From NCBI GenBank assembly GCA_019636675.1, contig JAHBXC010000001.1, positions 992,001-1,056,000 on the forward strand: a stretch of DNA of 64,000 nucleotides. The letters are read 5' to 3'. Under the pieces are notes generated by a model. It did no database searches. It had not been told where the DNA came from and saw only the letters and a program-made list of their open reading frames with translations. The stretch is from Phycisphaeraceae bacterium (GTDB taxonomy: Bacteria; Planctomycetota; Phycisphaerae; Phycisphaerales; UBA1924). Each line of letters opens with the position of its first letter. Position 1 is the stretch's first letter. This document shows positions 46,215 through 54,403 of this stretch, in pieces. The position numbers were made by a program, and so were the translations under genes.

Positions 46215-46353
46215 CATCACCCCGGCCCTCTCCCATTCGGCTGCGCCGAACAGGAGAGGGGGCAGAGAAGAGAGGGGACAAACCCACTGCCTGCTCCCTC
46301 TTCCCTGCTGCCTTTCTCCCGAATGCCTCGTGCCCTGTGCCCTGTGCCTTCTC
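46215..46353. repeat. REP-like palindrome plus pyrimidine-rich repeats
   Basis: It begins CATCACCCCGG and continues with the palindrome CCCTCTCC-TTCGGC-GCCGAA-GGAGAGGG (46226-46260, small mismatched joints). This is the same family as the 54092-54126 segment within tsaD. It is followed by CTGCCTGCTCCCTCTTCCCTGC (inverse of the GGGAGCAGGGA family, about 46283-46310) and CGTGCCCTGTGCCCTGTGCC (about 46328-46347), the inverse of the GGCACAGGGCACA unit at 51124. Confidence 0.75.
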
Positions 46354-47400: not shown

Positions 47401-47595
47401 GGGCGGGAGTCTCCTCGTTGGCCGCGCAGAGGGGCGGCTTCTCTTCCATGCGGAGTTTAGGGTGGTAGTCCGCAAAGTGGGTCGTGAAGACCCTCCCCCT
47501 GCCCCCTCGCGCGAGCGGGAGGGGGGACGGAATGAGAGAGAGTTGGGGAGGGAAGGCGGGAGAAGGGGGTAGCACCACACTTCGTGTGGTGGCAC

Positions 47596-47636
<41 letters not shown>

Positions 47637-47788
47637 CAGAGGTTGGGGAGGGAAGCCGGGAGTTGGGGTAGCCCTCATCCGTCTCACTGCGCGAGACACC
47701 TTCTCCCGGTGGGAGAAGGGGGAGAATCCCCCGCTTCTTCTTCCTTCGCGCCCTCCGCGTTCTCGGTGATGAATCGCTTCTGCGCGCC

Positions 47789-51118: not shown

Positions 51119-51561
51119 GAAGTAGGCACGGGGCACAGGGCACAAGGCACAAGCAAAGAACACCGGGTGGCGTGGTGCACGCGCAGCGGGCGCCACGGCT
51201 GTGCGCACGCAGGCCGAGGAATTCAGTCAACACACTGAAGCACACCCCGGTCCCCCTCCCGCTCGTGGGACGGGCTAGGCGAGGCTCTTCCGAAGGTGGA
51301 CAGTTGCCAGTCCGCCCGCGCCCTGCCACCTCCCGCGAGGGGGGACCAGACCGCAGCCCGACTCTCCACCCTCCGCGTCCTCTGCGCCCTCTGCGGTGAA
51401 TCTCTTCTCCCGACATGGCACGGCTTCGCCGTACCACGCCACCCCCACCCTCTCCCCACCCGCGCTGAATCCCTCTTGCCCGGGTCCCGATCCCCTTGCC
51501 CACTTTGTCCGTACGATCTCCCGGCGGGCGCACGACGCGACCCGCGAGGAGACTGCATCGC
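51119..51561. repeat. 443-bp repeat-rich intergenic region upstream of the S41 protease
   Basis: It holds no gene. It contains GGCACGGGGCACAGGGCACA units (51124-51150); a degraded GGTGGCGTGGTG...GGCGCCACGG element (51167-51196); CCCTCCCGC/CTCCCGCGAGGGGGG elements (51256-51350); CTCCGCGTCCTCTGCGCCC...GGTGAATCTCTTCTCC (51370-51410); and GGCACGGC-ttc-GCCGTACCACGCCACCC (51417-51446). The protease ribosome-binding site GAGGAG is near 51546. Confidence 0.8.
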
Positions 51562-53230: not shown

Positions 53231-54403
53231 GTGACGCTCATTCTCGGGATCGAGACCAGTTGCGACGAGACCGCCGCGAGCGTGGTCCGCGACGGGTCAC
53301 TCGTGCTGTCCAATGTCGTCGCGTCGCAGTACGAACTCCACGAGGAATACGGCGGCGTCGTGCCCGAGATCGCCAGCCGCGCGCACCTCGAACGCATCGC
53401 GCCCGTCGTACGCAGCGCGCTGCGCGACGCGGGCGTCACGATGAACGACCTCGACGCCGTCGCCGTCGGCAACCGGCCCGGGCTCATCGGTTCGCTCGTC
53501 GTGGGCGTCGCGGCGGCGAAGGCCCTCGCGTGGGCGAGCGGGAAGGCGCTGATCGGCGTGGACCATGTCCACGCGCACCTCGTCGCCGCTGACCTGCGCG
53601 ACAGTGAGGACGAGCCGGACGCGCTCACCGAGTATCCCGCGCTGGGTTTGGTCGTCAGCGGCGGGCACACCACGCTCTACCGCGTCGACTCGCCCCTCGA
53701 GATCACGCGCCTCGGCTCCACCATCGACGACGCCATCGGCGAGGCCTACGACAAGTGCGCCGCGATGCTCGGGCTCCCACAGCCGGGAGGCCCCTCGGTC
53801 GACGCCCTCGCGCAGCGCGGCGACGACCGCGCGCACGACTTCCCGGTCAGCCGGCTCGCGCCCGAGTCCCTCGACTTCTCCTTCAGCGGGCTCAAGACCG
53901 CTGTCCTCTACACCGTGCGCGGCCAGCCGGCGCGCGACGCGCAGGGGCAGATGCGCTTCGAGCGCACCAGCGACGACCTGAACGAGCAAGAGAAAGCGGA
54001 TATCTGCGCGAGTTTCCAGCGCGCGGCGGTGCGCGCCGTGATCCTCAAGATGGAGCGGGCGATGGATTCGTTCCGGGGGCCGGAAGAAGACCCCTCACCC
54101 CGGCCCTCTCCCCAGAGGGGAGAGGGGGCGGGAGAAAGACCCTCCCCCTGCCCGCTCCCGCGAGCGGGAGGGGGGAAAGACTCTTGCCGCTCGATCGTGA
54201 TCGGGGGCGGGGTGTCGGCGAACTCGCGCCTGCGCGACGAGGCGCAGGCGCTGGCGAAGCGGCGCGGGCTGGCGCTGCGCGTGCCGAAGATGAAGTACTG
54301 CATGGACAACGCCGCGATGATCGCGGCACTGGCGCATCACCGGCTTCTCGCCGGGGAAACCGACGATTTATCGCTCGCCGCCGCCCCGACCGCGGCGCGA
54401 TGA
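53231..54403 (+). CDS. tsaD: tRNA threonylcarbamoyladenosine biosynthesis protein TsaD, with repeat-derived insertion
   Basis: A 390-residue enzyme that transfers threonylcarbamoyl to A37 of ANN-decoding tRNAs with TsaB and TsaE. GIETSCDETAASVV starts the protein. The metal-binding His112 and His116 are in DHVHAHL. Other motifs are VSGGHT, FSGLKTAV, GGGVSANSRL and CMDNAAM. It is about 45 residues longer than usual. Most of the excess (residues about 284-318, Pro/Gly/Arg-rich) is encoded by two palindromes at 54104-54126 and 54155-54170, inserted in frame in a loop before the GGGVSAN strand. Start at GTG 53231. Confidence 0.93.
   Translation: MTLILGIETSCDETAASVVRDGSLVLSNVVASQYELHEEYGGVVPEIASRAHLERIAPVVRSALRDAGVTMNDLDAVAVGNRPGLIGSLVVGVAAAKALAWASGKALIGVDHVHAHLVAADLRDSEDEPDALTEYPALGLVVSGGHTTLYRVDSPLEITRLGSTIDDAIGEAYDKCAAMLGLPQPGGPSVDALAQRGDDRAHDFPVSRLAPESLDFSFSGLKTAVLYTVRGQPARDAQGQMRFERTSDDLNEQEKADICASFQRAAVRAVILKMERAMDSFRGPEEDPSPRPSPQRGEGAGERPSPCPLPRAGGGKDSCRSIVIGGGVSANSRLRDEAQALAKRRGLALRVPKMKYCMDNAAMIAALAHHRLLAGETDDLSLAAAPTAAR
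54084..54178. repeat. REP-like palindromes inserted in frame within tsaD
   Basis: First palindrome: CCCTCTCCCC-aga-GGGGAGAGGG, perfect 10 bp, 54104-54126. Second: CTCCCGC-ga-GCGGGAG, perfect 7 bp, 54155-54170, within GACCCTCCCCCTGCCCGCTC...GGGAGGGGGGA. The second unit is nearly identical to non-coding 47489-47527, and the first resembles 46219-46260. Together they add about 35 codons to tsaD without breaking the frame. Confidence 0.85.

Follow-up and report, generated by a model that had tools for sequence, protein, structure and literature searches.

In-frame palindromic repeats in tsaD and other conserved genes of a Phycisphaeraceae bacterium, and DUF559 nucleases as candidates for their spread

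The tsaD locus and its extra segment

The window, that is, the whole stretch of 64,000 nucleotides analysed here, contains an open reading frame whose product is TsaD (Table 1): it matches TIGR03723 at E 7e-113, above the curated cut-off, and PF00814 as well. A first-pass annotation had called this protein oversized, and the homologues bear this out. The span from FQRA to GGGVSA counts 69 residues here versus 33-47 in 116 of the 119 other homologues listed, the comparison covering the best 120 of 7606 scored. The roughly 35 additional residues are located between the last long helix upstream and the GGGVSAN strand, and the conserved motifs on either side are intact in the alignment, as had been stated. 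The remaining three long-loop proteins (P0043, P0093, and P0102), available as protein sequences only, have 61-68 residues in this span, with inserts that differ from the present one. The nearest TsaD proteins among the homologues listed, P0002 to P0009, share 66-69% identity with it and have a total length of 349-355 residues. Nor was the segment found in the 27 relatives' loci with a readable loop or in further loci, some of which escaped the search pattern; L032, the best tsaD match in other genomes, has 50 residues in the same span.

What is this segment made of? It had been ascribed to two palindromes, and these are indeed present as units A and B; folding against dinucleotide shuffles gives each the z score listed in Table 1, and z -3.9 for the 95-nt segment as a whole. 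Unit B is, as claimed, almost identical to the copy at 47489-47527, two aligned positions being different. The resemblance of unit A to a copy given as 46219-46260, and delimited slightly differently here, stands for the arms and not for the loop. The dispersed B copy on its own folds no better than chance (z -1.1). All three forward frames of the 105-nt insert are open, as are two of the three on the opposite strand.

In the AlphaFold model, residues 284-315, nearly all with pLDDT <50, lie in the loop that links helix 252-281 to strand 321-325, and the remainder adopts a confident TsaD fold (TM-score 0.92 on 3zet_B); a surface loop of this kind had been anticipated. The extra segment of tsaD is confirmed as two copies of a genome-wide palindromic repeat inserted in frame. 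Two outcomes had been named beforehand as speaking against this reading, conservation of the segment in distant Phycisphaerae and absence of the repeat elsewhere; the segment was not found in the readable TsaD of relatives (119 proteins, 27 loci, and the further loci), and the repeat lies at dozens of sites.

Some side observations concern the same sequences. Directly after the dispersed B copy, a GA-rich tract of GAGAGAGA and GGGGAGGGAAG repeats occupies 47534-47668. The insert of P0043, GGGGTGVSPIVGAQVDAHGRNARSTG, sits in the same TsaD loop and resembles an unrelated repeat family. A second TsaD loop, before PALGLVVSGGHT, has long inserts in other genomes of the class (L101, L099, L103, L105, L104, L096, L100, L108, and L106); these read like other dispersed-repeat families, for example SEIRNPKSEI and GTRGQGDKEKNLPLSPCPLV, their dispersal being a candidate feature. 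That the TsaD loop is a hot spot for repeats is at most a tentative lead; of the 18 genomes with split TsaD matches, several have long inserts in this second loop.

Table 1. Features of the window, in-frame repeats elsewhere in the genome, and the palindrome beside E. coli ycjD. Positions are those of the window unless a locus or accession is given.
Feature	Position or locus	Strand	Remark
tsaD with in-frame palindromic insert	53231..54403	+	390 aa
Composite insert, palindromic units A + B	54084..54178	+	~105 nt net; encodes ~residues 284-318
Unit A (CCTCACC - 4 nt - CCCTCTCCCC - loop - GGGGAGAGGG)	54093..54130	+	z -2.1
Unit B (CCCTCCCCCTGCCC..CTCCCGCGAGCGGGAGGGGG)	54139..54176	+	z -3.4
Dispersed B copy outside tsaD	47489..47527	+	flanks without common coding frame
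Dispersed A-like copy	46219..46262	+	shares arms of unit A; loop differs
Degenerate B core	51252..51275 (contig 1043252-1043275)	-	3 mismatches; 24-nt core scan
In-frame repeat in dxr, argS	L169		
In-frame repeats, two sites, in HMG-CoA lyase gene (mvaB)	L157		
In-frame repeat in mutS	L155		
In-frame repeat in MmeI-like methylase gene	L003		
In-frame repeat in parB	L018		
In-frame repeat in deoC	L012		
In-frame repeat in ileS	L015		
In-frame repeat in MBL-fold metallohydrolase gene	L027		below NCBIfam cut-offs, above Pfam's
In-frame repeat in ligase-associated exonuclease gene	L158		
Palindrome beside ycjD	L324:1705-1741 = NC_000913 1351204-1351240		

The repeats across the genome and in other conserved genes

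With the tsaD insert as the query, its own genome gives 81 matches at E <=10 (40 of 97 first-look candidates were scored); composites of A and B are also present elsewhere, and identity between parts of the segment and dispersed copies reaches 100%. Allowing 3 mismatches at most, a genome-wide scan for the 24-nt core of unit B gives 57 forward and 63 reverse matches, i.e., 120 strand-matches in which a palindromic site is often counted on both strands, and the reversed control yields 0. Merging copies up to 150 bp apart leaves 59 sites in the loci examined, of which 47 are outside conserved genes with a shared open frame. From 51 distinct B copies, the consensus cCCtcCCCCtgcCCCCTCCCGCGAGCGGGAGGGGG was derived; 27 of these copies start with GAAGACCCTC. 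In short, these are stem-loops of 20-40 bp, in many copies and probably mostly extragenic, as is typical of REP-like sequences.

The in-frame sites were screened by scoring codon usage on both flanks and requiring a single open frame through the repeat. Fifteen of the 59 sites pass: twelve are in eleven genes, tsaD and those listed in Table 1, and three are in short frames without a named family (L122, L029, and L020), which were left out of the gene count. Because an open frame through both flanks was required for entry, the list is uninformative on how often insertions break a frame. For most of the in-gene inserts, NCBIfam or Pfam matches cover the insert or flank both of its sides; for example, the 92 profile positions of ParB_N are stretched over 105 residues, and the 84 of DXP_redisom_C over 105. 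The genome thus offers eleven conserved proteins carrying the same kind of invading peptide.

Palindromes of comparable behaviour are known from other bacteria. The likeness to Rickettsia palindromic elements, proposed from tsaD alone in the first-pass annotation, holds in that both are dispersed through the genome and enter many unrelated proteins in frame, here eleven conserved ones; intragenic repeats of R. conorii have been equated with RPE-4 and RPE-6, and RPE-1 has been noted in genes (PMC3733652). The likeness is one of behaviour; the present repeats belong to another phylum, have no CGTC tag, and are associated with a nuclease (see below). In-gene REPs have also been described in other bacteria, including in repair genes and tRNA synthetases (PMC3733652), just as mutS, argS, and ileS are hit here; that paper assigns no dedicated transposase to the CGTC REPs and was not one of the papers found to mention DUF559.

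Like REPs, BIMEs, and REPINs, the palindromes occur as singles, inverted doublets, and tandem groups. They differ in lacking the GTAG or CGTC tag, and their apparent partner is a PD-(D/E)XK/Vsr-like DUF559 protein rather than the HUH tyrosine transposase (RAYT). Among the 51 B copies, GTAG was found in 2 on the 5' side and in 0 on the 3' side, and CGTC in 4 and 6, respectively; as for the reverse complements, CTAC was found in 1 and 1, and GACG in 3 and 3. By both the tag and the flanks of the two RAYT-like (Y1_Tnp) loci, the repeats fall outside the GTAG and CGTC REP superfamilies.

DUF559 genes between shared repeats

The genome has four strong PF04480 (DUF559) matches and one weak one. The DUF559 gene at L174 has long direct repeats containing unit A on both sides, and the one at L173 is bracketed by a long inverted repeat of other sequence; the locus L172 fails the flank test described below. 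Two of the four strong genes, L172 and L173, have no A/B motif alongside. At L173 (G000:C3:228503, ~1100-2200), the gene is central in an inverted repeat with arms of >300 bp, which is either a real element or an assembly fold-back. The two Y1_Tnp genes (L061 and L062) appear, by eye, to be bordered by palindromes of their own (CCCGGGTCACTGC.. and GCCGCGTGCGGAAGCACGCGGC), which differ from units A and B.

How general is this arrangement? Among 120 Phycisphaerae genomes, 33 contain PF04480 at E 1e-12, and 38 of the 48 matches were examined, the omitted ones being nine in open frames of >800 aa and one partial match; some genomes contribute more than one locus (five from G078, four from G000). 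For each locus, the 400 bp on each side of the domain were compared, and a shared repeat was accepted above a score of 17, a threshold chosen after the scores were known. Such a repeat is shared between the flanks at 35 of the 38 loci, and 3 fail. The controls gave 1 of 45 for distinct tsaD loci (with flanks partly inside tsaD), 1 of 30 for PIN-domain genes of the same 120 genomes, and 1 of 25 for far flanks of the DUF559 loci, this last case (362 points) being taken as the long inverted repeat of L173. The strict A/B motif occurs within 300 bp of 21 of the 38 DUF559 genes versus 0 of 25 PIN genes and 2 of 56 tsaD loci, a set that includes 10 duplicates and this genome's own gene.

For a second set, named genomes were searched with six planctomycete DUF559 queries; of the 512 relatives, the best 80 were kept, and these come from Planctomycetota, Alpha-, Beta-, and Gammaproteobacteria, Chloroflexi, Cyanobacteria, Rokubacteria, and others. 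Two loci at contig ends were dropped, and 68 of the remaining 78 pass the flank test and 10 fail (66/76 without the two loci shared with the class set, both of which pass), versus 0 of 61 for the far-flank control. The shared repeats are present on both sides in inverted or direct orientation; by eye, most are a CCCTC(T/C)CCC-type hairpin accompanied, ~4 nt away, by a second arm-like tag, and variants and other sequences occur too.

The abundance of the repeats follows the presence of the nuclease. At least 5 copies of the pattern CCCTCMCCN{4,5}CCCTCYC are found in 19 of the 26 genomes of the class with a solo DUF559 versus 11 of the 94 others, which include seven with only large DUF559 hits (Fisher p 2.8e-9, uncorrected for phylogeny and base composition); 7 of the 26 have <5 copies. 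In most genomes the reversed control gives no or few matches; it nearly equals the count in G045, G140, and G167, and reaches ~70% of it in G000 and G053 (a range of ~68-100% across these five DUF559 genomes), which probably reflects that the B form reads almost alike backwards. The ratio of this control was used to assign each genome to subtype A or B, with two mixed and seven low-copy genomes left out. The DUF559 flanks agree with this assignment (p 8e-4): they are mainly of B type in 5/5 B-type genomes, and in the 12 A-type genomes they are A in 8, B in 0, and neither in 4.

The same trend appears in 14 named genomes scanned for CCCCTCCCGC..GCGGGAGGGG, where the counts include the flanks themselves. 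The seven with the hairpin at a DUF559 flank have 62, 51, 22, 14, 3, 47, and 18 sites, the 62 being those of the DUF559-bearing Sphingopyxis indica DS15, versus 0, 0, 5, 0, 0, 0, and 0 in the seven with other flanks; the reversed control gave 0 in all 14.

The closest contact between repeat and nuclease is seen in the HMG-CoA lyase gene of this genome, where a B doublet, a DUF559 domain, and a second B doublet form a block within a single open frame. The nuclease domain scores above the PF04480 cut-off, and both the lyase and the nuclease parts retain the residues that are invariant in the alignments. In the AlphaFold model (pTM 0.66), the lyase is confident and the nuclease domain fairly so, and the linkers between them (79-107 and 229-258, pLDDT <50) coincide with the repeats.

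PF04480 is present in 45 of the 120 best homologues of this chimera, a number that is not a frequency, the list having been drawn with a DUF559-bearing query that favours carriers. Some of these 45 (P0121, P0126, and P0127 are among them) are named merely "DUF559 domain-containing protein" in their sources. The position of the insert is constant in 60 alignment rows, and in most of them it is flanked by Pro/Gly/Arg-rich segments resembling this kind of repeat; a descriptive motif finds them in 31 of the 45. Of the 75 lyases without DUF559, seven have a repeat-like peptide at the site (P0123, P0124, P0130, P0178, P0182, P0187, and P0239), the motif search finds none in the other 68, and one was recognised by eye in P0235. 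One site in HMG-CoA lyase exists in three states: it is empty, holds a single repeat-like peptide, or holds repeat-nuclease-repeat, the solo state being seen at the peptide level. On a quick tree of the host part, the presence of DUF559 requires 17 changes, 13 of them forced by well-supported branches, whereas shuffled labels average 36. Identities of host and DUF559 parts correlate only weakly (rho 0.23; 43 sequences, 903 pairs), which favours neither pure descent nor pure homing.

As for the nuclease, the nearest PDB sequences are 3hrl, endonuclease-like (E 3.6e-15), and, more weakly, 3r3p, a mobile intron protein (E 0.005). The latter we take to be the structure of I-Bth0305I, an EDxHD homing endonuclease. 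Homing nucleases of this family have been described (PMC3943268). They resemble the present case in the insertion at a single site of a conserved host gene and, given the distant similarity to 3r3p, possibly in the nuclease domain; they differ in that here there is no intron or intein, and the insert is bounded by palindromes and translated within the host protein. Occupancy of the same lyase site is, as a sign of homing, only suggestive.

A last case comes from a model organism. E. coli K-12 ycjD is annotated as a DUF559 protein, and an A-form palindrome, CCCCTCACCCTAACCCTCTCCCC-AGA-GGGGCGAGGGG, is found 166 bp from it on one side only, so that the locus shares the A-form palindrome near a DUF559 gene with the cases above, differs in its one-sidedness, and fails the two-sided flank test. 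Places similar to this palindrome (E up to 10) occur in 5377 of 5426 E. coli genomes, with a median of 19. The repeat is probably what is called Box C. BoxC has been described as 56 bp long and present in 32 copies (PMC2267715). YcjD itself was earlier counted as a member of the PD-(D/E)XK superfamily, with a profile that detects Vsr (PMC1189080).

How the repeats may spread

Palindromes of the form CCCTC(A/C)CC-4nt-CCCTC(T/C)CCC-loop thus adjoin DUF559 genes in many phyla and occur in most E. coli genomes, and to our knowledge no enzyme has been shown to move them. This kind of repeat probably owes its spread to DUF559 endonucleases: in this genome and in several other phyla, their genes are often found flanked by such palindromes. 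The nuclease, Vsr/PD-(D/E)XK-like, would cut DNA at or near the palindromes or at a target site, and repair would copy the palindromes to new sites, with or without the nuclease gene. Solo repeats would then be non-autonomous derivatives, and copies within genes would persist only when they keep the frame and fall in surface loops, being translated there into disordered Pro/Gly/Arg-rich stretches while the host protein keeps working. Mobilisation of these repeats is thus a putative role of DUF559; that it may act on its flanking palindromes or on a target site is suggested by analogy with RAYT genes, which are located between two inverted REPs (PMC2817692).

Several observations weigh against this role: 7 of the 26 genomes with a solo DUF559 have <5 copies and 11 of the 94 others reach 5 or more, two of the four strong DUF559 genes of this genome have no A/B motif nearby, 3 of 38 and 10 of 78 loci fail the flank test, and E. 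coli ycjD has its palindrome on one side only.

The association could partly arise from a preference of DUF559 genes for palindrome arrays as landing sites. Taken to its limit, DUF559 would be a passenger that lands in or beside palindromes spread by something else, the in-gene copies being ordinary REP insertions. Insertion sequences are known to target REPs (PMC1525189), and the 11 of 94 genomes that reach at least 5 copies without a solo DUF559 fit such a passenger. We nevertheless consider it unlikely: the repeat is shared on both sides of the gene, inverted or direct, in an arrangement similar to that of RAYTs and REPs (PMC2817692), the subtype of the flanks agrees with that of the dispersed copies, and repeat-like segments border the DUF559 insert in many HMG-CoA lyases while most homologues without DUF559 lack them.

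A maintenance role, in which a Vsr-like repair or hairpin-processing nuclease keeps or tolerates the palindromes without moving them, is distinctly improbable. For Caulobacter VsrA, which has a DUF559 domain, a nuclease function in mismatch repair has been predicted (PMC12907096), which suits this role; however, maintenance leaves unexplained the position of the gene between repeats, its in-frame presence in HMG-CoA lyase, and its many gains and losses on the host tree.

Still less probable is movement by RAYT (Y1_Tnp) transposases, as is thought for the classical GTAG REPs. The genome does contain two Y1_Tnp matches, but their loci (3.2 kb each) contain 0 copies of motif A or B, which rules against RAYT as the mover, and the 51 B copies have no fixed GTAG or CGTC tag. 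It is hardly credible, finally, that the segment is an artefact of assembly or that low-complexity sequence has expanded in the TsaD loop of this lineage: the source is a draft genome of 8 contigs, yet parts of the segment recur in dispersed copies at up to complete identity, and the HMG-CoA lyase chimera, on a contig of 1,566,101 bases here, is found again at 97% identity as P0121 on a separate contig of 74,071 bases.

What is already known, then, is that REPs enter genes (PMC3733652); what is new here is the link between the DUF559 nuclease and the repeats, for which no literature was found in open-licence papers, and subscription papers may exist. Beyond their probable role in spreading the repeats, we lean, with less assurance, towards DUF559 proteins being a second, RAYT-independent class of REP-mobilising enzymes: a palindrome-nuclease-palindrome element spanning bacterial phyla, with E. 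coli YcjD and its Box C-like repeat as a probable member, that would shed solo palindromes into essential genes in frame and, in Phycisphaerae, reoccupy one HMG-CoA lyase site like a splicing-free homing element. If so, the DUF559 nucleases would acquire a function that can be tested, and REPs that spread without RAYT would gain a candidate enzyme, with ycjD as a case in a model organism.
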